Assembly: GCA_903840265.1 (NCBI GenBank)
Contig: CAIMFH010000107.1
Span: 1 to 64,000 of the forward strand
Source of the DNA: an uncultured Schlesneria sp.
Lineage (GTDB): Bacteria; Planctomycetota; Planctomycetia; Planctomycetales; Planctomycetaceae
Direction: 5' to 3'
DNA: 64,000 nt
A program made the translations under genes and the position numbers. The notes under the pieces are model-generated. The model had not been told where the DNA came from. It worked only from the letters and a program-made list of their open reading frames with translations, and ran no database searches. This document shows, piece by piece, positions 18,618-62,570 of the stretch. How positions within the stretch are numbered: position 1 is the first letter of the stretch; each line of letters starts with the position of its first letter.

Positions 18618-18644
18618 GGAGCCACGGATTTTCACGGATAGAAC
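18618..18644. repeat. Partial TAGCCACGGAT-family arm
   Basis: A single degenerate arm (AGCCACGGATTTTCACGGAT) lies about 30 bp after tatC on the + strand. I see no matching right arm nearby. Confidence 0.6.
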
Positions 18645-20644: not shown

Positions 20645-20831
20645 TGGTCACTCCTTTCGTTCGCGTCGGTCGGCAGGACATCTATGCAAGTCGATCGGAT
20701 TCTAACGATGGGGGGCAGGTTGGGGAAGACGCGCGGGTCAGGTTTAGGCGGCTTACCGCAACCAAATCAGCCTATCTGGTTAACCTATATCCACTATCTT
20801 GGCGTGACTTGGCCGAAGTGGCCACGTTTGG

Positions 20832-27874: not shown

Positions 27875-29329
27875 ATGACTCGACCCGAAATCTCAGAAGC
27901 GATCGCTCGACGGACGTTTCTGAATCAACTGGCCGCTGCCTCGACCGCCGCGCTGATGTCCGGCGCTCCGCGCCTGGTGGCCGGCAGCGAGCACGAAGCG
28001 GTTACTCATCCCGAGCCCACTGCCGACTCCTGTATTCTGCTGTGGATGGCGGGGGGCATGGCCGCGCCCGAAACATTCGATCCCAAGCGATATCATCCCT
28101 TCGAAATCGGGACGCCGGTCGACAAGGTGATGAGCACCTTTAAGTCGATCGATACTGTCGTCGACAACATCAAGATTTGCGAAGGGCTGGAACAGATTGC
28201 CAGCGTGATGGACCGCGCGACGCTGATCCGGTCGCACTATCAGCCCGACCTGGGCAGCATCTTGCATTCGCGGCATCAGTATCACTGGCACACGGGCTAC
28301 GTCCCGCCACAGACCGTCGCCGCGCCTCACATCGGTGCGTGGATGGCACGAGTCCTGGGACCTCGCAATCCCGTCATGCCCGCATTCATCAATATCGGTC
28401 AACGGCTGGAAGGGATCGGCGAAAACGAAGAGATCAAGGCGTTCACGCAGGCCGGCTTCTTCGGCAGCGAATTTGGTCCGATGAACTTACCCTATCCCGA
28501 CGAAGCGGCCCGCGCGGTCCGTCCACCGAAGGGAATGGAGCCCGGACGCTTCGAAAGTCGACAGAAACTGTTCCGCAAGTTGCTCGATCAAAACCCACAA
28601 CGCGAATATCTCAGCGACTATCACCAGCAATCGATGTTGCGATCGCTCGAGAATGCACATCGCTTGCTGAGCTCCAAAGATCGTGATGCGTTTGATCTGT
28701 CGCTGGAACCGAAAGAGAGCTACGAGAAATACAACACGGGTCGATTCGGTCAGGGCTGTTTGCTGGCTCGTCGACTGGTTGAGTCGGGAGCTCGCTTCGT
28801 CGAAGTGACCACCGAATACATTCCGTTCGTGCATTGGGACACTCACGCCGACGGACATGCTGCGGTGGATCGCTTGCACAAAGAGATTGATCGACCGATC
28901 TCGCAATTGATCCTCGACCTGGAATCGCGCGGGTTACTCGACCGGACTCTGGTGATCATCGCCAGCGAATTCAGTCGCGACATGATCATCGAAGGGGTAC
29001 CGGGATCGAATGCGCGTGATCAAGCGACGGCCCCGACGGATATTCTGAAAGAGCCCAAGCACTACGGCCTGCATCGCCACTTCACCGGCGGCACGTCGGT
29101 CGTCATGTTCGGTGGCGGCGTGAAGAAAGGCTTCCTCTACGGCGAAACGGCTGCCGAACGGCCCTGCCTGGCGATTAAAAACCCAGTCTCTGTCTCAGAC
29201 ATGCACGCCACGATCTTTTCCGCGATGGGGATCAGTCCCAAGACGCAATACGACGTGGAAAAGCGCCCGTTTTATGCGACGGAAGACGGAAAAGGGAAAG
29301 CGGTGAAAGAGGTTTTTAGCCACGGATGA
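27875..29329 (+). CDS. DUF1501 domain-containing protein
   Basis: A 484-residue DUF1501 protein. The N-terminus has a Tat-like signal (ARRTFLNQLAAASTAAL). Family landmarks include LLWMAGGMAAPETFDPKRY, HTGYVPP, YNTGRFGQGCLLARRLVESGARFVEV, HWDTHADGH, and a C-terminal GGTSVVMFGGGVKKGFLYGET. It lacks the usual DUF1549 partner next to it. The last residues (FSHG) and the stop codon TGA are read from the edge of an inverted-repeat arm (AGCCACGGATGA), so the native end of the gene was probably altered by the repeat. Confidence 0.92.
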   Translation: MTRPEISEAIARRTFLNQLAAASTAALMSGAPRLVAGSEHEAVTHPEPTADSCILLWMAGGMAAPETFDPKRYHPFEIGTPVDKVMSTFKSIDTVVDNIKICEGLEQIASVMDRATLIRSHYQPDLGSILHSRHQYHWHTGYVPPQTVAAPHIGAWMARVLGPRNPVMPAFINIGQRLEGIGENEEIKAFTQAGFFGSEFGPMNLPYPDEAARAVRPPKGMEPGRFESRQKLFRKLLDQNPQREYLSDYHQQSMLRSLENAHRLLSSKDRDAFDLSLEPKESYEKYNTGRFGQGCLLARRLVESGARFVEVTTEYIPFVHWDTHADGHAAVDRLHKEIDRPISQLILDLESRGLLDRTLVIIASEFSRDMIIEGVPGSNARDQATAPTDILKEPKHYGLHRHFTGGTSVVMFGGGVKKGFLYGETAAERPCLAIKNPVSVSDMHATIFSAMGISPKTQYDVEKRPFYATEDGKGKAVKEVFSHG

Positions 29330-29901
29330 ACACGGATGAAACACGGATAAAGGCAAAAGAAAGCGGGAGAGGTGGAAGAGGATAAAGCCGGGGAGATGGG
29401 GGATGGTGGAGTTGGTGCATCAGGAGATTACGCAGGCGATCATTGGTGCTGCGTTTGAGGTGCATAAGGTTTTGGGGTATGGATTTCTGGAGCGTGTCTA
29501 TCAGAAGTCGATGCAGGTCGAATTGATTTCACGCGGATTCCGAGCAGAGATCGAATTTGAAATCAGCGTTCAATACAAGGGCGTTGAAGTTGGCTTCTAT
29601 AAGGCCGATTTGCTTGTGAATAAACTGGTCCTCGTCGAATTGAAAATCGCGAAGACCTATGCGGTCGACGACGAACCACAGCTTCTCAACGAGTTGAAGG
29701 CCACCGGAATCAAAGTCGGCCTCCTCATCAACTTCGGAAAAAGCAAAGTCGACTTCAAACGCTTCGCCTATTAACTCTCTTCATGTCTCTCCGCATTACC
29801 TGTCAAATCAAGTATCCCGCAGCCACCTGCATTCCTGATCTTCATCCCCTCTATTCCTTTATCCTCTTTATCCGTGTTGATCAGTGTCAATCCGTGGCTA
29901 C
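29316..29901. mobile_element. GxxExxY gene flanked by inverted repeats (putative element)
   Basis: Imperfect arms of about 36 bp at 29316-29352 and 29862-29901 are reverse complements (TAGCCACGGATGAACACGGA type) and enclose the GxxExxY gene. Iterations of CACGGATGAA give an approximately 10-11 bp period. Gene-free elements of the same arms are at 32268-32425, 46299-46437 and 51469-51612. Both converging neighbours end inside this element's arms. The mobile-element reading is inference; no transposase is known for this family. Confidence 0.6.
29403..29774 (+). CDS. GxxExxY protein (PD-(D/E)XK-like)
   Basis: A 123-residue protein of the GxxExxY family, with the naming motif GFLERVY at 27-33. 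It belongs to the PD-(D/E)XK nuclease-like group: D69, then E79-L-K81 (LVELKIAK), then a Q93-containing helix QLLNELKAT and a C-terminal GLLINFGKSKVDFKRFAY. Length is typical. Catalysis is inferred from these residues, not shown. An AGATGGGG-rich segment and GGGGAGA precede ATG 29403. It lies alone between the two arms of an inverted repeat, and the same arms occur without a gene elsewhere in the window. Confidence 0.9.
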   Translation: MVELVHQEITQAIIGAAFEVHKVLGYGFLERVYQKSMQVELISRGFRAEIEFEISVQYKGVEVGFYKADLLVNKLVLVELKIAKTYAVDDEPQLLNELKATGIKVGLLINFGKSKVDFKRFAY

Positions 29902-31706
29902 TTCTTGATTTGCCCGTTCTTCGGGTTCACAGCGATCCCAAGCTGTTCTGTTTCGTCCACGAAGAACACGAAGCCGTTGAACATTTCGTCGTAGGTTTGC
30001 TGGCCCCAGGGGACGGTTCTTTTTGGGTCGGGGTTATACGGGTTGAAGGCCGAGTTGTCGTAGTGGGCGACTGCTTCGATCACGGTTCCCTTGGATAGGC
30101 GCTTTTGTCCCGGTTCGATTTCGTAACCGAGTTGCCATTCGAAATTGTAGTTGGCGATCTGCAGCAGCGTTTCCCGCGATTTGTCTGGAGCGACTGCGAA
30201 GAAGGTCATGTCCTTGCCGCGAACGTGCATGTGCGAAAACATCCCCATCAGGGTGATGTCGCGATCGAGGGTCTTGCCCGCTTGAATGGCAAAGGCCCCA
30301 TGGCCTGGTGGAATCGCGATCCGATGCGGGTCGAGCAAGAGATGTCGCAGTTGCTTCTGCACAGGTCGTCGAGGAAAACGCAGCCCGACTTGAATCCGAC
30401 AGGTCTCTTCTTTGCCGGTCGTGGTGTAGTGGATTTGTAGTCCTAACGCGGCCAGTTTTGGAATGAGAATCGCGGAGCCGTTGTCGAACCGGCCCATGTC
30501 CATCGGCTGCCCTCCGGGGACGTGACCCGTGATAAAGGTGTGCTCACCAGCCCCCTTGGGCGTGACAAACGCCATGTTGCAGTGATGCACGACGGCGGGG
30601 TTCTGGGGCCGGATTTCAATGGCTTCGACCCACGTATCGGCCAGGAAAATGTGAGGCAGCAACGCATTTCGATAGGGGACGAATCCTGTGGCCGGGATCG
30701 TATGTTCTTCGAGCATCGTCACGATCAGATCTGGTTCGCCGATCCGCCAGCGAGTTGCGGCTTTCGCTGGTTCCGCGGCGGTCTCCGGCGCATCGCCTTC
30801 GGCTCGACCTGATCGCACCCAGTTCGCGATCGTTTCTCGCTCGGTCGTGGACAACGAAGGGTCGTTCTGAAACTTGCCATGCTTGGGATTGGCAAACCAA
30901 GGCGGCATCCGCTGATCGGCGACGACTTCGGCGATCATCTCGGCATGGGATACCGCATTGCGATAGGTCAGCAACGCGAACGGAGCGGCTGTTCCCTCGA
31001 CGTGACAGTTGACGCACCGCCGCTGCAGGATCGGGGCGACATCCTGATGATAGGTCGGATCGGGCTGCTTCGCCGACGGTGGCAGCGGTGCCTCAATTGT
31101 GCAGCCGTCCACAGCAGTCTCCGCCACCGAGACAGCTTGACCGGCGAGCGTCTCGCGAATCGCTTCTTCCAAGTCTCGACGAGTCGGCTCGGGTCGAGCA
31201 CCACCAAGGCGAAGCTGATCGTCGATGCGACCTCGATAGATTAGTTTCCGGTCGGAATCAAGAACCGCGACACCGGGCGTTCGCGTCACGCCAAGAGATT
31301 TCGCACACGAGAGATCAACGTCTTTGACGAAGGCGAATGCCGCGTCGAGTTCAATCGCCTGCGCCGCCATATCGCGAATCGTGTCATCGGCCCCCACGTT
31401 GACCGCCAAAAACTGAACGTCTTGAGGTGTGTAGCGAGAATCCAGGTCAATCAGTTTCGGGATCGAGCGGCGGACCAATGGGCACGACGTGGTCGTAAAG
31501 ACAAAGACGTACGCTCGTTTCTTGCCAAGGTCCGAGAGCGTTCGCGGTAAGGCGCGGATATCCTTAAATCGCAACTCGGGAACGGTATCGCCGATCTTGG
31601 GCGGTTGGGCCTGCGCCTGTGCGAGTTGACCCAGCATGGCCACAACGAGCAACACCATCGCTCCGCGCATCGTCAATCCCCTGGAAATCGACTGGAATCG
31701 AATCAC
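29898..31706 (-). CDS. Redoxin-cytochrome c-copper monooxygenase-like fusion
   Basis: A 602-residue exported protein. After a signal peptide (about residues 1-34) comes a thioredoxin-like domain (about 35-195) with TTTSCPLVRR; only C75 is present, so it is not a CxxC thioredoxin. A c-type haem motif CVNCH is at 231-235. From about 325 a dopamine-beta-monooxygenase-like domain follows, with the HHC at 374-376, an HYTTTG strand and FSHMHVRGKDM as probable copper ligands. The combination is seen in planctomycetes and related groups; substrate unknown. The stop codon TAG is the first three bases of the TAGCCACGG inverted-repeat arm. Confidence 0.88.
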   Translation of the reverse strand: MIRFQSISRGLTMRGAMVLLVVAMLGQLAQAQAQPPKIGDTVPELRFKDIRALPRTLSDLGKKRAYVFVFTTTSCPLVRRSIPKLIDLDSRYTPQDVQFLAVNVGADDTIRDMAAQAIELDAAFAFVKDVDLSCAKSLGVTRTPGVAVLDSDRKLIYRGRIDDQLRLGGARPEPTRRDLEEAIRETLAGQAVSVAETAVDGCTIEAPLPPSAKQPDPTYHQDVAPILQRRCVNCHVEGTAAPFALLTYRNAVSHAEMIAEVVADQRMPPWFANPKHGKFQNDPSLSTTERETIANWVRSGRAEGDAPETAAEPAKAATRWRIGEPDLIVTMLEEHTIPATGFVPYRNALLPHIFLADTWVEAIEIRPQNPAVVHHCNMAFVTPKGAGEHTFITGHVPGGQPMDMGRFDNGSAILIPKLAALGLQIHYTTTGKEETCRIQVGLRFPRRPVQKQLRHLLLDPHRIAIPPGHGAFAIQAGKTLDRDITLMGMFSHMHVRGKDMTFFAVAPDKSRETLLQIANYNFEWQLGYEIEPGQKRLSKGTVIEAVAHYDNSAFNPYNPDPKRTVPWGQQTYDEMFNGFVFFVDETEQLGIAVNPKNGQIKK

Positions 31707-31873
31707 GAACGATCACGATAACCGCACTTGATCGGAACGCCAATTGGAATGTGAGAATGCGTCATTCGCCAAGCCATCAACGGCTGCGACTTCACAGATG
31801 GTTTCCAGCAGCGATAATGTCTCTCAGAGTCGCATTGCGAGAAATCGAGTCGAGACTATCAGCGAGAGAATTC

Positions 31874-32245
31874 ATGGCCAACCATTCACCGCGGTTCCTG
31901 CAAATCGTAGATGCTGTACGCGTTAATATTCGCGAGTGTACCGTCAGCGAAATCCAGGATCGGCTAAAACGGGGTGAGCAGTTTTTGTTGTTCGACGTTC
32001 GCGAAGAGAGTGAGTATGCGGCAGGACACTTGCCGACCGCGAAGTGGCTGGGGAAGGGGATCATCGAACGCGACATCGAATCGATCGTGCCCGATCCCGA
32101 TACCGAGATGGTGCTGTACTGCGGCGGCGGGTTCCGCTCGGCGTTGGCGGCAGACAACCTGCAGAAGATGGGCTACACCAATATCATCAGCATGGATGGC
32201 GGCTTTCGGGGTTGGAAAGATTCTGGGTCTGAAATCGTCAAATAG
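31874..32245 (+). CDS. Rhodanese-like domain protein
   Basis: A 123-residue single-domain rhodanese. The active-site loop is LYCGGGFRS, with the persulfide-forming cysteine; preceding landmarks are LLFDVREESEYAAGHLP and a LGKGIIERDIES segment. It transfers sulfane sulfur in the cytoplasm; partner unknown. The frame is open upstream to 31619, but the domain begins just after ATG 31874, which has a GAGAGA region before it. It diverges from the redoxin-monooxygenase gene. A degenerate repeat arm follows soon after the stop codon. Confidence 0.9.
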   Translation: MANHSPRFLQIVDAVRVNIRECTVSEIQDRLKRGEQFLLFDVREESEYAAGHLPTAKWLGKGIIERDIESIVPDPDTEMVLYCGGGFRSALAADNLQKMGYTNIISMDGGFRGWKDSGSEIVK

Positions 32246-32267
32246 CTAGGCCACGGAGAAGAACTTT

Positions 32268-32425
32268 TAGCCACGGATTGACACGGATGAAACACGGATT
32301 CGGAGGAAGAGATTAAGAGGGGAAGTTGGAAGAAGCTGACACGGCGGATTGCGATGCAGATCCAAGTCAGAGATCAAGATTTCTCTGCTCTTAATCCGTG
32401 TTTCATCTGTGTTCATCCGTGGCTA
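32268..32425. repeat. Inverted-repeat element, TAGCCACGGAT family, gene-free
   Basis: Arms at about 32268-32305 and 32389-32425 are reverse complements with few mismatches. The 83-bp interior has no gene. Same family as the arms around the GxxExxY gene. Confidence 0.9.
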
Positions 32426-32461
32426 CCGCTGTTGTTTTAGGAATTCGTCAAGGAAGAAGAT

Positions 32462-33997
32462 ATGACCTCACTGACTTATGCACTTGAGCGACTGGGGATT
32501 GGTTCGCAACCCAATGCTGTCTGGATCGGTGGCAGCGGGGCCGTGGGTTCGGGGGATGAACTGCGCAGTAGGTCGCCGATTGATGGATCGGTGCTGGCGA
32601 CGTTTGCCTCGGCGACCTCGGCCGATGTTCCGGCGGTGCTGACGGCGTCGATCGAGGCGTTTCGGACGTGGCGGACTGTCCCCGGTCCACAGCGGGGCGA
32701 GTTCGTGCGGCGAGTTGGCAATCGGTTCCGCGAGTTCAAAGACGACCTGGCCAGTGTCATCTCATGGGAAGCGGGCAAGATTACTCAAGAGGCACTCGGT
32801 GAGGTACAAGAGGTCATTGACATCTGCGACTTCGCCGTGGGCCTCAGTCGACAATTGCATGGACTGACAATCACCAGCGAGCGGCCGCAGCATCGGCTGT
32901 CGGAGCAATGGCATCCGTTGGGGCCGGTCGGTGTGATCACGGCGTTCAACTTCCCGATGGCGGTCTGGGCCTGGAACGCCGCATTGGCGTGGGTCTGCGG
33001 TGACCCCGTCGTCTGGAAGCCTTCCGAGAAGACGCCGCTGTGTGCCATCGCGTGTCAGGCGATTGTGGCGGGCGTGCTGAAGGAGATGCCGAACGTTCCG
33101 CCCGGTGTTTCAACGCTGATCGTCGGTGGACGCGATGTGGGTGAATCGTTGTCCGTTGCTCCCGAGTTACCGTTGATCTCGGCCACCGGATCAACGGCGA
33201 TGGGGCGAGCGGTTGCTGAAAGCGTGGCGACGCGACTGGGTCGATCGCTGCTCGAACTGGGTGGCAACAACGGCATGATCGTGGCGCCGTCTGCGGACCT
33301 GGACCTGACCATTCGAGCGATCGTGTTCTCGGCGGTGGGGACTTGCGGGCAACGATGCACCACACTGCGACGCCTGATCGTTCACGAGAGCCTGGCGGAT
33401 GATGTCGTGAAGCGGCTGCGTTCGATCTATGACCGGTTGCCGATTGGGAATCCATTGGAGCAGGGGACGCTGATCGGACCGCTGATTGATGAACAAGCCT
33501 CGTCGGCCATGCATCTGGCATTGATCCGCGCCAAGGTCGAAGGAGGGCGTGTCCATGGTGGCGAACGTCTGCAGGAGGGCGTGCCGTCGGGCGGGGTCTA
33601 TGTTCGACCAGCTCTGGTCGAGATCCCCACGGGCGATGGCATTGTGCAGCAGGAAACGTTCGCTCCGATCTTGTATGTCCTGCGATACAAGACGTTCGAA
33701 GAAGCGATCGCAATTCACAACGATGTCCCTCAGGGGCTGGCCTCGTCGATCATGACGAGTGATATGCGCGAAGCAGAACGCTTCTGCGCGGCGGCGGGAT
33801 CAGATTGCGGCATCGTGAACGTGAACGTCGGTCCCAGCGGAGCCGAGATCGGCGGGGCATTCGGTGGTGAAAAGGCCACCGGTGGCGGTCGTGAATCAGG
33901 ATCGGATAGCTGGAAGGCGTACATGCGACGCGCGACGAATACGATCAATTACTCAACTGAGCTGCCACTGGCGCAAGGGATTCGATTCGATATCTAA
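32462..33997 (+). CDS. ALDH7-type aldehyde dehydrogenase
   Basis: A 511-residue NAD(P)-dependent aldehyde dehydrogenase. The catalytic cysteine is C299 in GTCGQRC, and the glutamate is in LLELGGNNG. The pattern around SERPQHRLSEQWHPLGPVGVITAFNFPMAVWAWNAALA and the ending NYSTELPLAQGIRFD fit ALDH7 (antiquitin/piperideine-6-carboxylate dehydrogenase AmaB type), which oxidises aminoadipate semialdehyde. Neighbouring genes are for a hydroxyproline-type epimerase and a D-amino-acid-like dehydrogenase, so a related ring-amino-acid semialdehyde is also possible. ATG 32462 follows GGAAGAAGAT. A family match is strong; the exact substrate is not settled. Confidence 0.92.
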   Translation: MTSLTYALERLGIGSQPNAVWIGGSGAVGSGDELRSRSPIDGSVLATFASATSADVPAVLTASIEAFRTWRTVPGPQRGEFVRRVGNRFREFKDDLASVISWEAGKITQEALGEVQEVIDICDFAVGLSRQLHGLTITSERPQHRLSEQWHPLGPVGVITAFNFPMAVWAWNAALAWVCGDPVVWKPSEKTPLCAIACQAIVAGVLKEMPNVPPGVSTLIVGGRDVGESLSVAPELPLISATGSTAMGRAVAESVATRLGRSLLELGGNNGMIVAPSADLDLTIRAIVFSAVGTCGQRCTTLRRLIVHESLADDVVKRLRSIYDRLPIGNPLEQGTLIGPLIDEQASSAMHLALIRAKVEGGRVHGGERLQEGVPSGGVYVRPALVEIPTGDGIVQQETFAPILYVLRYKTFEEAIAIHNDVPQGLASSIMTSDMREAERFCAAAGSDCGIVNVNVGPSGAEIGGAFGGEKATGGGRESGSDSWKAYMRRATNTINYSTELPLAQGIRFDI

Positions 33998-34068
33998 TTC
34001 AACCTGGTGATTCTGCTCACCCGAAGTTAAATCAATCCGTCAACGACATCACGTGAAAGAGAATCTCA

Positions 34069-36104: not shown

Positions 36105-36134
36105 GAACAAATCTCCGTACGAATCAAAGTCTTC

Positions 36135-36218
36135 TGGGAGGGCGAGGCTCCTGCCGAGCCGCGCATGTCGATGATCTCACAATCACTCAGGTGGCTCGGC
36201 AGGAGCCTCGCCCTCCCA
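36135..36218. repeat. Perfect 26-bp inverted repeat, CGAGGCTCCTGCCGAG family
   Basis: Arms at 36135-36160 and 36193-36218 are perfect reverse complements (TGGGAGGGCGAGGCTCC outside, TGCCGAGCC inside) around a 32-bp loop. A degenerate copy is at 27101-27180. It lies between two minus-strand genes of the hydroxyproline-type cluster and could act as a terminator for the upstream one. Confidence 0.95.
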
Positions 36219-46178: not shown

Positions 46179-46298
46179 CGCAATCACGTCCGATAGAGAG
46201 GATCACTGCAGCGGCATCAATGCGATCAATGGACAAATCGTGTGCTGCAGCACGAACGTGATGATACAACGCGCGACAGCGGTTTCAAAACGGAGTCG

Positions 46299-46437
46299 AG
46301 CCACAGGTGAAACACAGATTGAACACGGATGAAGATGAGAAACCAGTTCATTGAACACGCGAGCGGATGCCTCAGCCACCACAGCCTTGAATCACCTACT
46401 CTTCATCCGTGTTCAATCAGTGTTTCATCCGTGGCTA
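46299..46437. repeat. Inverted-repeat element, TAGCCACGGAT family, gene-free
   Basis: Arms at about 46299-46339 and 46400-46437 match in reverse complement (AGCCACGGATGAAACAC and GAACACGGATGAAG blocks). It lies between the divergently transcribed modA and GH32 genes. The rest of that approximately 375-bp gap shows no other feature, so their promoters must lie around or within it. Confidence 0.9.
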
Positions 46438-51468: not shown

Positions 51469-51612
51469 TTTAGCCACGGATGAACACTGATGAAACACTG
51501 ATAAGCAATAAATGCAGCGGAGAAGCTGTCGGAGCAAATGAAGTCAGATCGTGACGATGAATCTGCTTCTCATTCCTGATCCGTGTTTATCTGTGTGAAT
51601 CCGTGGCTAAAC
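51469..51612. repeat. Inverted-repeat element, TAGCCACGGAT family, gene-free
   Basis: Arms at about 51469-51506 and 51576-51612 are reverse complements (TTTAGCCACGGAT outside). The interior of about 69 bp has no gene. It begins 6 bp after the stop codon of the pterin dehydratase gene. Confidence 0.9.
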
Positions 51613-56381: not shown

Positions 56382-56679
56382 GGTTCAGTCACAGCTGAAC
56401 ATGTTGCCGAATTCCCACATGTCGGAATCCTGCGATTAGTCGGAAACGCAGGCCCGGCGCGGAAGTTCTGGTAAAGTCTGCCGGCGACTTCCTCCATTCG
56501 ACAAGTCGCCATGTGGCACGACCTGACAAGACGCGGTAGACTTCTGCGCGACAGCCCGATCTCTCGACATTAGATTTCTGCGAAGCGTGTCGATCTCTTT
56601 TTTGACGCAAAATGCGTCTCAGCGATAACTCATGCGACGTCCAATCTACGATTCCCCTTCGCTCATCAAGAGACATCCC

Positions 56680-60523: not shown

Positions 60524-62166
60524 GTGATTCGCTGAAGAACGTCTCGCGGAACTTGCGTCTCGTCAGCCTCTGCACTTTCATCAGTCGCATCTTTGGGTTG
60601 CTGCGCGATCAGGCGATGGGAACGCTGTTCGGCGCGGGGCCTGTGCTGGACACATTCACCGTTGCCTTCCGCCTGCCAAATCTGGCGCGCGTCTTACTCG
60701 GCGAAGGGGCCTTGACCACAGCGTTCCTGCCGATCTTCGTCGAAGAACTGAACGAGCGTGGTCGCGAGTCGGCGGCGCGAGTGACTTGGGCCGTCTTCGT
60801 CACGCTGGCGGCGGTGCTGTGCGGACTGGTCATCGTCGTGGAACTGGGGTTGGCGGCACTGGTTTCGTTCGTCGATCTTGCCGCGGAAACGCGGCTGCTC
60901 TGTCAGCTCACGGCGATGCTGTTGCCATATGTCATTCTGATCTGCCTGGCGGCTCAACTGGGAGCCGTCCTCAATGCCTTGGGCCGGTTCGTCTGGCCAG
61001 CTCTGGTTCCGGTCGTGCTGAACGTCGTCTGGCTGGCCGCGCTCTGGTGGGTAATCCCGATCTACTGGTCCGATCCCCTGCAGCAGGTGCAGGCGACGTC
61101 GGTGTTCGTCGTGGCGGCCGGAGCACTGCAACTGGCGTTTCTGCTGCCCGTCGTCTGGCGCTGTGGTTTTGGATATCGATCCGACTGGCGATCGGCGACA
61201 GGTGTCGTGGGACGGATCGCTCGCGTGATGCTGCCGGTCGTCGTCGGACTCTCGATCACGCAACTGAACGGAATGCTCGACAGTTTCATCGCCTGGGGAT
61301 TCGCTCGACCGGAAGGAGCCGGCCCAAACATGCCGCTTCCCGGCTCGCCCGCTTATCCCCTTCACGCCGGCACGGCCACGGCGCTGTATCTGGGACAACG
61401 GCTGTATCAGTTCCCGTTGGGTGTCTTCGGTGTGGCGTTAGGGACGGTGCTGTTTCCGCTGTTCACTCAGCATGCGCAACGAGGCGAATTCGATAAGCTG
61501 CGCGGCGACTTGTCACTGGGGATTCGACTGGTGCTGGCGATCGGCCTGCCTGCCAGTGCCGGGCTGATGCTGATCGCTCATCCACTGGCAACGCTGTTCT
61601 TTCAGTACGGCAAATTCGACGCAGCGGCGGCGGCGATGACGGGTGACATGATCGTGTGCTATGGGTCAGGCGTCTGGGCTTACTGCGCGCTGCTGATCCT
61701 GCAACGAGGCTTCTACGCCATCGGCGATCGTCTGACACCAATGTATGTCGGGCTCGTCGCGATGTTGCTGAATGTGGCTCTGAATCTCACGCTGATCTGG
61801 CCGCTGGGAGGACGAGGCCTGGCCCTATCAACGGCACTGGTTGCGGCCCTGCAATGTGCGGTGACCTGCCTGCTGCTACAGCACAAAGTGGGACAGTTGC
61901 TCTGGAAAGAAGTCGCATGGACCGCCGTCCGCACACTGATTGCGGTGGCAGTCATGAGCGTCGTCTGCCTGCTGCTCACGCTACCATCTGCCCCCGAAGA
62001 CGGACTCAAACTTCGCGGCCTGAAGTTGCTGGTCCCTCTCGCGGCCGGCGGCCTGACATTCCTGGCGATGGCCTGGCTATTGCGACTGAAAGAGCCGTGG
62101 TCAGTAATCTTCGCACGCGGTCAGATCGGGAAAGAGATCAAGGAAATGAATCACGGAATACACTGA
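60520..62166 (+). CDS. murJ: Lipid II flippase MurJ
   Basis: A 548-residue MOP-superfamily flippase with about 14 membrane helices. The start NLRLVSLCTFISRIFGLLRDQAMGTLFGAG and AFRLPNLARVLLGEGALTTAFLPIF are standard MurJ segments. It moves lipid II across the inner membrane for peptidoglycan synthesis, relevant since planctomycetes were once thought to lack peptidoglycan. It overlaps the preceding small gene by 4 bp. The C-terminus (NHGIH) and the stop codon are encoded by the edge of an inverted-repeat arm (AATCACGGAATACACTGA). Confidence 0.93.
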   Translation: MSDSLKNVSRNLRLVSLCTFISRIFGLLRDQAMGTLFGAGPVLDTFTVAFRLPNLARVLLGEGALTTAFLPIFVEELNERGRESAARVTWAVFVTLAAVLCGLVIVVELGLAALVSFVDLAAETRLLCQLTAMLLPYVILICLAAQLGAVLNALGRFVWPALVPVVLNVVWLAALWWVIPIYWSDPLQQVQATSVFVVAAGALQLAFLLPVVWRCGFGYRSDWRSATGVVGRIARVMLPVVVGLSITQLNGMLDSFIAWGFARPEGAGPNMPLPGSPAYPLHAGTATALYLGQRLYQFPLGVFGVALGTVLFPLFTQHAQRGEFDKLRGDLSLGIRLVLAIGLPASAGLMLIAHPLATLFFQYGKFDAAAAAMTGDMIVCYGSGVWAYCALLILQRGFYAIGDRLTPMYVGLVAMLLNVALNLTLIWPLGGRGLALSTALVAALQCAVTCLLLQHKVGQLLWKEVAWTAVRTLIAVAVMSVVCLLLTLPSAPEDGLKLRGLKLLVPLAAGGLTFLAMAWLLRLKEPWSVIFARGQIGKEIKEMNHGIH

Positions 62167-62407
62167 ACACACGGAATGAGGACCAGGTGAAGAATAATAG
62201 CCTTCCTCTGTGATCTTTGTGCCTCAGTGTTTCTCTCTCTTGCTTCTTCTACAACACGGGGAGAATTGAAACACAGAGACACGAAGGCCACAGAGAAATC
62301 GTGCAACCTGATTCTGACTTAATTCCGTGTGTTCAGTGTATTCCGTGGTTCAACTCTGATTTGCTCTTCTCTGCGCACTTCGCGCCTCTGTGTCTCAATT
62401 CTCCGAT
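62146..62407. repeat. Compound inverted-repeat element
   Basis: Arms at 62146-62181 and 62318-62353 form a near-perfect inverted repeat (CACGGAATACACTGAACACA). Nested inside and overlapping are further copies of a GAGAATTGAAACACAGAGAC type motif, at about 62206-62239, 62260-62299 and, inverted, 62369-62404. So two palindrome families overlap. The rest of the gap up to 62570 has no gene. Confidence 0.85.
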
Positions 62408-62570
62408 TTCGTAGTTCACTTCCTCTTCGTGGTTCAGTTCCTCCCGCTGCTTGAGGAAACCCGCACTTCCTTCTGGTATCGGCTTGCGTTAATGTATTAA
62501 CCCACGCCCGTGAATCCTGCCGATAGTGAATTCGCCCCGCCCAAGTCCGACCTGCCGAAAGTCGTCTGCT

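Follow-up and report, generated by a model that had tools for sequence, protein, structure and literature searches.

Matched inverted arms around GxxExxY genes suggest a tiny REP/RAYT-like mobile unit with a predicted PD-(D/E)XK nuclease

Background

In MITEs, terminal inverted repeats are common to autonomous, gene-bearing partners and to gene-free copies. For the REPIN/RAYT system, the pertinent sections of two papers describe a gene with palindromic repeats of its own on either side, repeats that match the gene, dispersed inverted doublets that lack it, and a location behind coding regions (PMC3116915, PMC3733652); tyrosine transposases flanked by TIRs are described in a section of the second of these (PMC3733652). 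The 23S rRNA intervening sequence (IVS) of Coxiella, as presented in part of its description, contains an S23p ORF and inverted ends, with tandem heptamers ahead of the ORF, and is cut by RNase III (PMC4990558). The cyanobacterial STRR heptamers are hairpin-capable, intergenic tandem units of 7 nt, according to the section of the source that deals with them (PMC2670836).

Here we analyze a small gene of the GxxExxY family that lies between two inverted arms in a stretch of 64,000 nucleotides (the window) from an uncultured planctomycete, Schlesneria sp., together with related loci from other genomes. The matched pairing of gene and arms recurs in many bacteria and archaea and appears to change in step, which suggests a hitherto undescribed tiny mobile element. 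We assign a probability of about 0.62 to the reading in which the GxxExxY gene is inherited and moves together with its two arms as a single unit, the gene-free doublets being its non-autonomous relatives, in a REP/RAYT-like arrangement that employs a PD-(D/E)XK nuclease.

The GxxExxY unit resembles REPIN/RAYT in that the gene is flanked by its own matched repeats, in the occurrence of gene-free inverted doublets and in its sites behind coding regions. The two differ in the encoded protein, which is of the PD-(D/E)XK type in the GxxExxY unit and an HUH tyrosine transposase in REPIN/RAYT; in the arms, which consist of three tandem 7-nt units without the GTAG/CGTC tag; and in copy number, RAYTs being described as single-copy in the sections at hand (PMC3116915, PMC3733652) whereas up to 14 GxxExxY genes were detected per genome and their sites turn over. 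Because the HUH enzyme and the GTAG tag are both missing, the window's unit is not a member of REP/RAYT. With the IVS, the ORF of which is of the S23p/PF05635 family, it shares a small ORF within inverted ends and, in the case of Coxiella, tandem heptamers (PMC4990558, in part); however, GxxExxY is a different protein family, the arms follow a different grammar and the unit lies outside rRNA, its neighbours in the window being protein-coding genes and not 23S rRNA. As in MITEs, terminal inverted repeats are common to the gene-bearing and the gene-free copies, but the GxxExxY unit encodes no known transposase family, and the gene-free interiors mostly show no relationship to one another or to the gene-bearing unit. 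Unlike the GxxExxY arms, the STRR heptamers have no gene tied to them in the part of the source concerned (PMC2670836). Literature searches that covered openly accessible journal articles returned no function for GxxExxY, no link between GxxExxY and repeats, and no match for TIGR04256, PDDEXK_3 or six arm strings; a GxxExxY match is mentioned beside a reverse transcriptase, nothing more being said of it in the relevant part of that paper (PMC8934634).

The unit in the window and its protein

The unit consists of the following features:

29317-29352, + strand: left arm, 36 bp, TAGCCACGGATGAACACGGATGAAACACGGATAAAG
29403-29774, + strand: GxxExxY/PDDEXK_3 gene, 123 aa, between the arms
29866-29900, - strand: right arm, 35 bp, inverted counterpart of the left arm

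The initial annotation, made from the letters alone, had placed the gene between inverted repeats of about 36 bp and had assigned it PD-(D/E)XK residues (D69, E79, K81), and both assignments are borne out. The left arm is built of three copies of CACGGAT, with gaps of 3 and 4 nt and the outer end TAGCC. Its pairing with the inverted right arm is imperfect, with one segment of 24 nt (83%) and another of 13 nt (100%). The upstream ORF (27875-29329) has its stop codon within the left arm, and the outer TAG of the right arm serves as the stop codon of the convergent ORF (29898-31706). With at most one mismatch, TAGCCACGGAT, which is one among many arm families, occurs at 12 sites in the window against 0.56 expected, a number that none of 100 shuffles reaches.

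The window's ORF matches the profiles PF13366 PDDEXK_3 (E 2e-34, 118.8 bits, cut-off 22) and TIGR04256 GxxExxY (E 3e-35, 121.3 bits, cut-off 35); these were the only two above curated cut-offs, no HUH Y1 transposase being found in the flanked gene. Six residues, G27, E30, Y33, D69, E79 and K81, are invariant across 88 aligned sequences, including that of the window, and the proposed catalytic residues thus stand. The AlphaFold2 model of the protein has a mean pLDDT of 96.5, and its best structural match is SSO0001, which we take to be a Cas4 protein (Z 10.1, 3.2 A over 98 residues); archaeal Holliday-junction resolvases match with Z 6.0-7.4, among them Hjc 1gef (Z 7.4, 3.4 A over 86 residues), and restriction-endonuclease-like proteins with Z of about 8. 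Sequence searches for relatives in the PDB yielded one chain with phmmer (E 0.43) and one with the profile (E 0.58), neither of them meaningful. By its residues and predicted fold, the protein is a member of the PD-(D/E)XK superfamily, and a nuclease role is predicted for it. The gene was detected in 139 of the 294 genomes sampled in Planctomycetota, with up to 14 genes per genome, and record titles add hosts among archaea, Chloroflexota, Bacteroidetes, Acidobacteria, cyanobacteria and Gammaproteobacteria.

Inverted arms around GxxExxY genes

Enclosure was scored by aligning the 250 bp upstream of a gene with the reverse complement of the 250 bp downstream. The phylum set comprised 93 genes, namely, the best-scoring among the matches listed and the three genes of the window's genome (G000; assembly of 7.49 Mb in 204 contigs), and is not a random draw; 92 of the 93 were scored, L027 being dropped for its short flank. 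Among these listed matches, the median score was 25.5, whereas 252 offset pairs gave 13 and 1000 cross pairs gave 12; 66 of the 92 genes exceeded the 95th percentile of the offset pairs, 28 exceeded every offset pair (the best cross pair scored 36), and 26, including two of the three in G000, fell below the threshold. Relative to an inverted-repeat threshold of 21.9, the window's gene (L002, score 36) is the only one in G000 to stand above; L001, with a score of 19, is below it and has CCACGAAT-type arms by eye, and L003 (score 10) has GCAAAG-type repeats on one side, the other side being cut by the contig end.

A second set consisted of the best 80 of 587 loci retrieved with an 8-row, single-clade alignment as the query. 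Its named records are mostly from other phyla, archaea included; 4 of the 80 have Planctomycetes or Planctomycetota in their titles, and a further three (two Sedimentisphaerales and one Stieleria) presumably belong to Planctomycetota as well. The set is nearly one clade, with G at unit position 7 in 63 of the 66 loci with a readable unit (best 80 of 587). Of its loci, 76 were scored (L205, L245, L262 and L277 were dropped), and among these best-scoring loci 58 lay above the 95th percentile of the controls, 46 above all 172 controls, and 18 below the threshold.

The arms mostly consist of three units of the form C-R-C-N-R-A-(G/T/A), usually preceded by one extra C, and a recognisable three-unit arm was present at 137 of the 173 loci of the two sets, among the matches listed. 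The C at position 3 and the A at position 6 were fixed by the search pattern, which allowed more at the first two positions; nonetheless, position 1 was C in 647 of 663 units and position 2 was A or G in 653 of 663. The exact grammar was found on either side of 59 of the 92 phylum loci compared with 4 of 88 and 1 of 84 offset windows. When one mismatch was allowed, the grammar was present on both sides of 54 of the 92 loci, compared with none of the 88 and 84 offset windows and none of 30 PF05635 loci; these counts pertain to the matches listed, and the test is partly circular because the pattern was written after the phylum loci had been seen. In the second set (best 80 of 587), a looser grammar appeared on both sides of 40 of the 80 loci. 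The arm ends, by inspection, are mostly CACC, AACC or TAGCC, with no GTAG or CGTC tag.

An absence of arm enrichment at GxxExxY genes elsewhere, relative to random genes, had been named in the initial annotation as one of two observations that would speak against it; enrichment is what we observed, with offset windows and the PF05635 and Y1 loci standing in for random genes. Chance as the source of the arms is disfavoured by the offset windows, the cross pairs, the reversed-pattern controls and the shuffles.

Association of the arms with the gene

The arms are tied more closely to the gene than to the genome. In 22 genomes with at least two sampled genes, the best partner of the upstream arm was the element's own downstream arm in 45 of 53 cases. 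A genome-wide repeat that merely lies near the gene is an unlikely source, given that the arms differ between the genes of one genome and match within the element. For pairs across host families, protein identity correlates with arm similarity (rho 0.46; 0 of 500 permutations in a Mantel test that kept 77 of the 92 loci, those with an inverted-repeat score below 18 being left out). Offset flanks correlate with protein identity as well (rho 0.33), so part of this value reflects composition or relatedness; given GC difference and offset similarity, the partial rho for the arms is 0.42.

The strongest clade signal lies in the last base of the unit. In the phylum set (71 loci, among the matches listed), position 7 is G in 46 loci, T in 19 and A in 6, and it changes 3 times on the protein tree of these loci, compared with a mean of 22.6 and a minimum of 18 in 300 shuffles; with foreign loci added, there are 5 changes against 26.7 by shuffling. 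Position 2 gave no clade signal within the phylum (22 changes against 22.8 shuffled), and positions 4 and 5 gave little (19 against 24.3 and 11 against 14.7). Host family requires 48 changes on the same tree, where 27 is the least possible and 57 the shuffled value, so the protein tree is far from the host tree; in four genomes, genes of different position-7 type occur side by side. The position-7 signal arises because gene and arm share descent, and base-specific recognition may be one reason for it to last. Mutual information, applied to find residues that determine the unit base, picks out only those that separate two deep clades, with no single determinant to be named.

Gene-free copies and turnover at orthologous sites

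A sister genome, G300, aligns with most of the window and contains the unit at the same place, with alignable flanks and arms, the right arm being shorter than in the window. The gene-free copies in the window, and one site that differs in occupancy, compare with G300 as follows:

32268-32425: gene-free palindrome with arms as in the window's unit; in G300 too, with the arms kept and inner indels of 6 and 26 nt
46298-46437: gene-free palindrome with a degenerate left arm; interior aligns poorly with G300
51471-51609: gene-free palindrome; its flanks and arms align with G300, but most of its interior does not
56401-56403: site without an element in the window; G300 is about 144 bp longer here, with a gene-free CCACGGAT palindrome

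Three gene-free copies had been recorded in the initial annotation, of which those at 32268-32425 and 51471-51609 are real and that at 46298-46437 is weakened by its degenerate left arm. Two of the three have interiors that are poorly alignable with the corresponding copy in G300. Across G000, arms were collected by hand at 57 places, degenerate arms being left out; all 13 adjacent pairs less than 700 bp apart are in + then - order, like REPINs, and with these arms there are 12 close doublets to one gene-bearing pair. The inner sequences, taken from seven gene-free doublets and from the two non-coding parts of the window's unit, are for the most part unrelated (4 of 36 pairings with p < 0.05 against base shuffles).

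Counted wherever they lie relative to genes, matches to the strict arm pattern number 6,538 in the 294 genomes, compared with at most 3 per genome for the reversed pattern. At least 3 matches were found in 106 of the 139 genomes with the gene and in 21 of the 155 without it, and shuffling gene presence within 19 hand-picked families (127 genomes) gave p = 4e-4. Zero strict-pattern matches were found in 25 of the 139 gene-bearing genomes, and at least 10 in 12 of the 155 without a detected gene. Among genomes with no detected GxxExxY gene, at least 3 matches occur in 14 of 42 that carry PF05635 and in 7 of 113 that do not. The proposed relation of an autonomous element to MITE-like derivatives therefore holds in part: the arms are shared and gene-free doublets are common, but the interiors are mostly unrelated and those 12 gene-less genomes are arm-rich.

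Comparison of filled and empty orthologous sites, which the initial annotation had recommended, indicates that units come and go. For the L065 site, 15 genomes of one family were searched, 12 had a good flank match and 11 spacers were readable (G088 was dropped because its left flank lay outside the locus, and G275, G248 and G267 because the matches were short only). A GxxExxY gene with CCGCAGAG-type arms occupies the site in G122, G217, G049 and G258, and an apparently decayed unit with such arms is found in G106. G168 has a different PF13366 gene (E 1e-32) with CCACAGAT arms; in G153, G070 and G292, the spacer contains what by eye are truncated or decayed relatives. G153 and G122 have flanks with 85-91% identity, yet G153 has the other unit between them. 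G239 has a PF05635 gene instead (E 1e-28), with other flanks, and G195 has 36 bp with an apparent arm relic.

At the L035 site, which was read in 15 of 16 genomes (G215 was dropped), the GxxExxY gene is present in 3 of the 15 spacers, and others hold gene-free palindromes of unrelated sequence, some of which begin with GTAGCGCAGGC, as GTAG-REPs might; accordingly, palindromes may be gathered by the site itself rather than by the nuclease. Inverted repeats with z of at least 3 (40 shuffles) were detected in 12 of 15 spacers at this site and in 6 of 11 at the L065 site; at L035, 9 of these spacers are gene-less, and in two, G247 and G151, one of the 40 shuffles matched the observed score. Part of the excess at both sites may be a general trait of such gaps. 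No target-site duplication was clearly seen in the filled and empty comparisons (L065, L035 and 56401), in which the spacers are highly variable. The L035 spot (L177-L192) recalls the 'highly variable but structured intergenic regions' of which the title of Jackman and Mulligan 1995 reportedly speaks.

Between the conserved arms, the window's ORF and its counterpart in G300 differ with pS 0.76 and pN 0.20, compared with pS 0.30-0.36 for four neighbouring genes (the rhodanese neighbour was left out). Together these values fit replacement under purifying selection, and a locally raised mutation rate could also account for them.

A replaced ORF between conserved arms is what would be seen if the gene were a homing-like rider, that is, if the palindromes were spread by another process and the endonuclease gene entered and converted existing ones. 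The preponderance of doublets over the single gene-bearing pair in G000, and the L035 site, with the gene in 3 of 15 spacers and structured, gene-less spacers in 9 others, point the same way. However, the unit base goes with the protein clade and the best match of the upstream arm lies within the element in 45 of 53 cases, so that it is more a matter of arms accompanying the gene than of the gene entering existing palindromes; on balance, we regard this explanation as rather unlikely, albeit with an appreciable share of the probability.

Orientation and expression

Neighbours were called by the longest ORF at 80 phylum loci and 51 second-set loci. In the phylum set, 45 genes run along both neighbours and 8 against both, with 17 co-directional with the downstream and 10 with the upstream neighbour only; the corresponding numbers in the second set (51 loci of the best 80 of 587) are 37, 3, 4 and 7. 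Between co-directional genes, the ratio of with to against is thus 82:11 in the two sets combined, where random orientation predicts equality. The first arm unit begins at a median of 13.5 bp after the stop codon (98 loci with a co-directional open frame of at least 100 codons ending nearby). Given the co-orientation and the nearness to the stop codon, the unit apparently relies on read-through transcription. The left arm shares the reading frame of the gene, with no stop between, in 65 of 112 loci; at L032, L034 and others, predicted N-termini (e.g. NHRDTEAQR) represent translated arm sequence, which means that annotated starts may be incorrect.

If gene and arms indeed form one mobile unit, read-through of the host operon would express the GxxExxY protein, which would recognise the units, probably as a hairpin or cruciform formed by the inverted arms, and cut at the unit ends; the cut unit, or a gene-free doublet in trans, would then be copied into a further gap that follows a stop codon.

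The same setting could be selected for expression and not for mobility, the arm stem in the operon mRNA shielding or releasing the small ORF. Co-orientation, the 13.5 bp median and the RNA fold of the window's unit (z -4.25) are compatible with such an RNA-level element, as is the Coxiella IVS, in which an S23p ORF, inverted ends and tandem heptamers are combined in an RNA that, according to the part of the paper concerned, is cut by RNase III (PMC4990558). By itself, however, this explanation leaves the gene-free copies, the presence and absence at orthologous sites and the clade-linked arm base unaccounted for, and an Rfam scan of 28000-34000 gave no match up to E = 1; we consider it improbable.

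Related families

For comparison, 30 PF05635 and 50 Y1_Tnp loci were taken from the matches listed. Among these, inverted arms above the GxxExxY control threshold flank 20 of the 30 PF05635 genes (L117-L146), compared with 4 of 84 controls; these arms are tandem short units with a grammar of their own, e.g. AGTGGTTAGTGGATAGTG, and 18 of the genes run along co-directional neighbours and none against (25 called). At the Y1_Tnp/RAYT loci, 31 of 50, among the matches listed, have inverted repeats above the control 95th percentile, of a third sequence kind, so the method picks up the known link between RAYT and REP, which serves as a positive control.

That another transposase, such as RAYT/TIRYT, moves the arms in trans with GxxExxY as cargo is very improbable: Y1_Tnp genes are present in 185 of the 294 genomes of the phylum and TIR-flanked tyrosine transposases are described in part of one source (PMC3733652), but the GxxExxY grammar, on any side and in either orientation, occurs at only 2 of the 50 Y1_Tnp loci, and the inverted repeats printed for the 31 are of different sequence, among the matches listed.

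A broader extension of the preferred reading, to which we would give somewhat less than even odds, is that a REP-like class of mobile palindromes in bacteria and archaea is driven by GxxExxY proteins acting as PD-(D/E)XK nucleases matched to the repeat sequence; together with RAYT/REP and the PF05635 tandem-unit palindromes, they would form a guild of unrelated small proteins, each with its own hairpin grammar, that are rivals for the same post-stop intergenic sites. The pairing of GxxExxY with a defined repeat that has a clade-linked base would give a protein so far annotated as hypothetical a candidate role as a nuclease with a substrate that can be tested, and it provides a possible source of the thousands of dispersed arm copies; if the nuclease does move the repeats, it would be a second enzyme class behind REP-like dispersal.

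Other palindromes in the window

Single or partial arms are present at 18619, 37468 and 57433, including a short palindrome, GTTCAGCCACGCTGAAC, beside an arm-like remnant. At 36116-36216, and at 20829, 23154 and 57450, further palindromes are present in one of the two sister genomes and missing in the other, a GAGGCTCCTGCCGAGCC type being found in the window only and a CATTCCCGCGCAGGCGGGAATCCAG type in G300 only. At 62132-62452, the palindromes mix CACGGAAT-type and CACAGAG-type arms and are partly different in G300.
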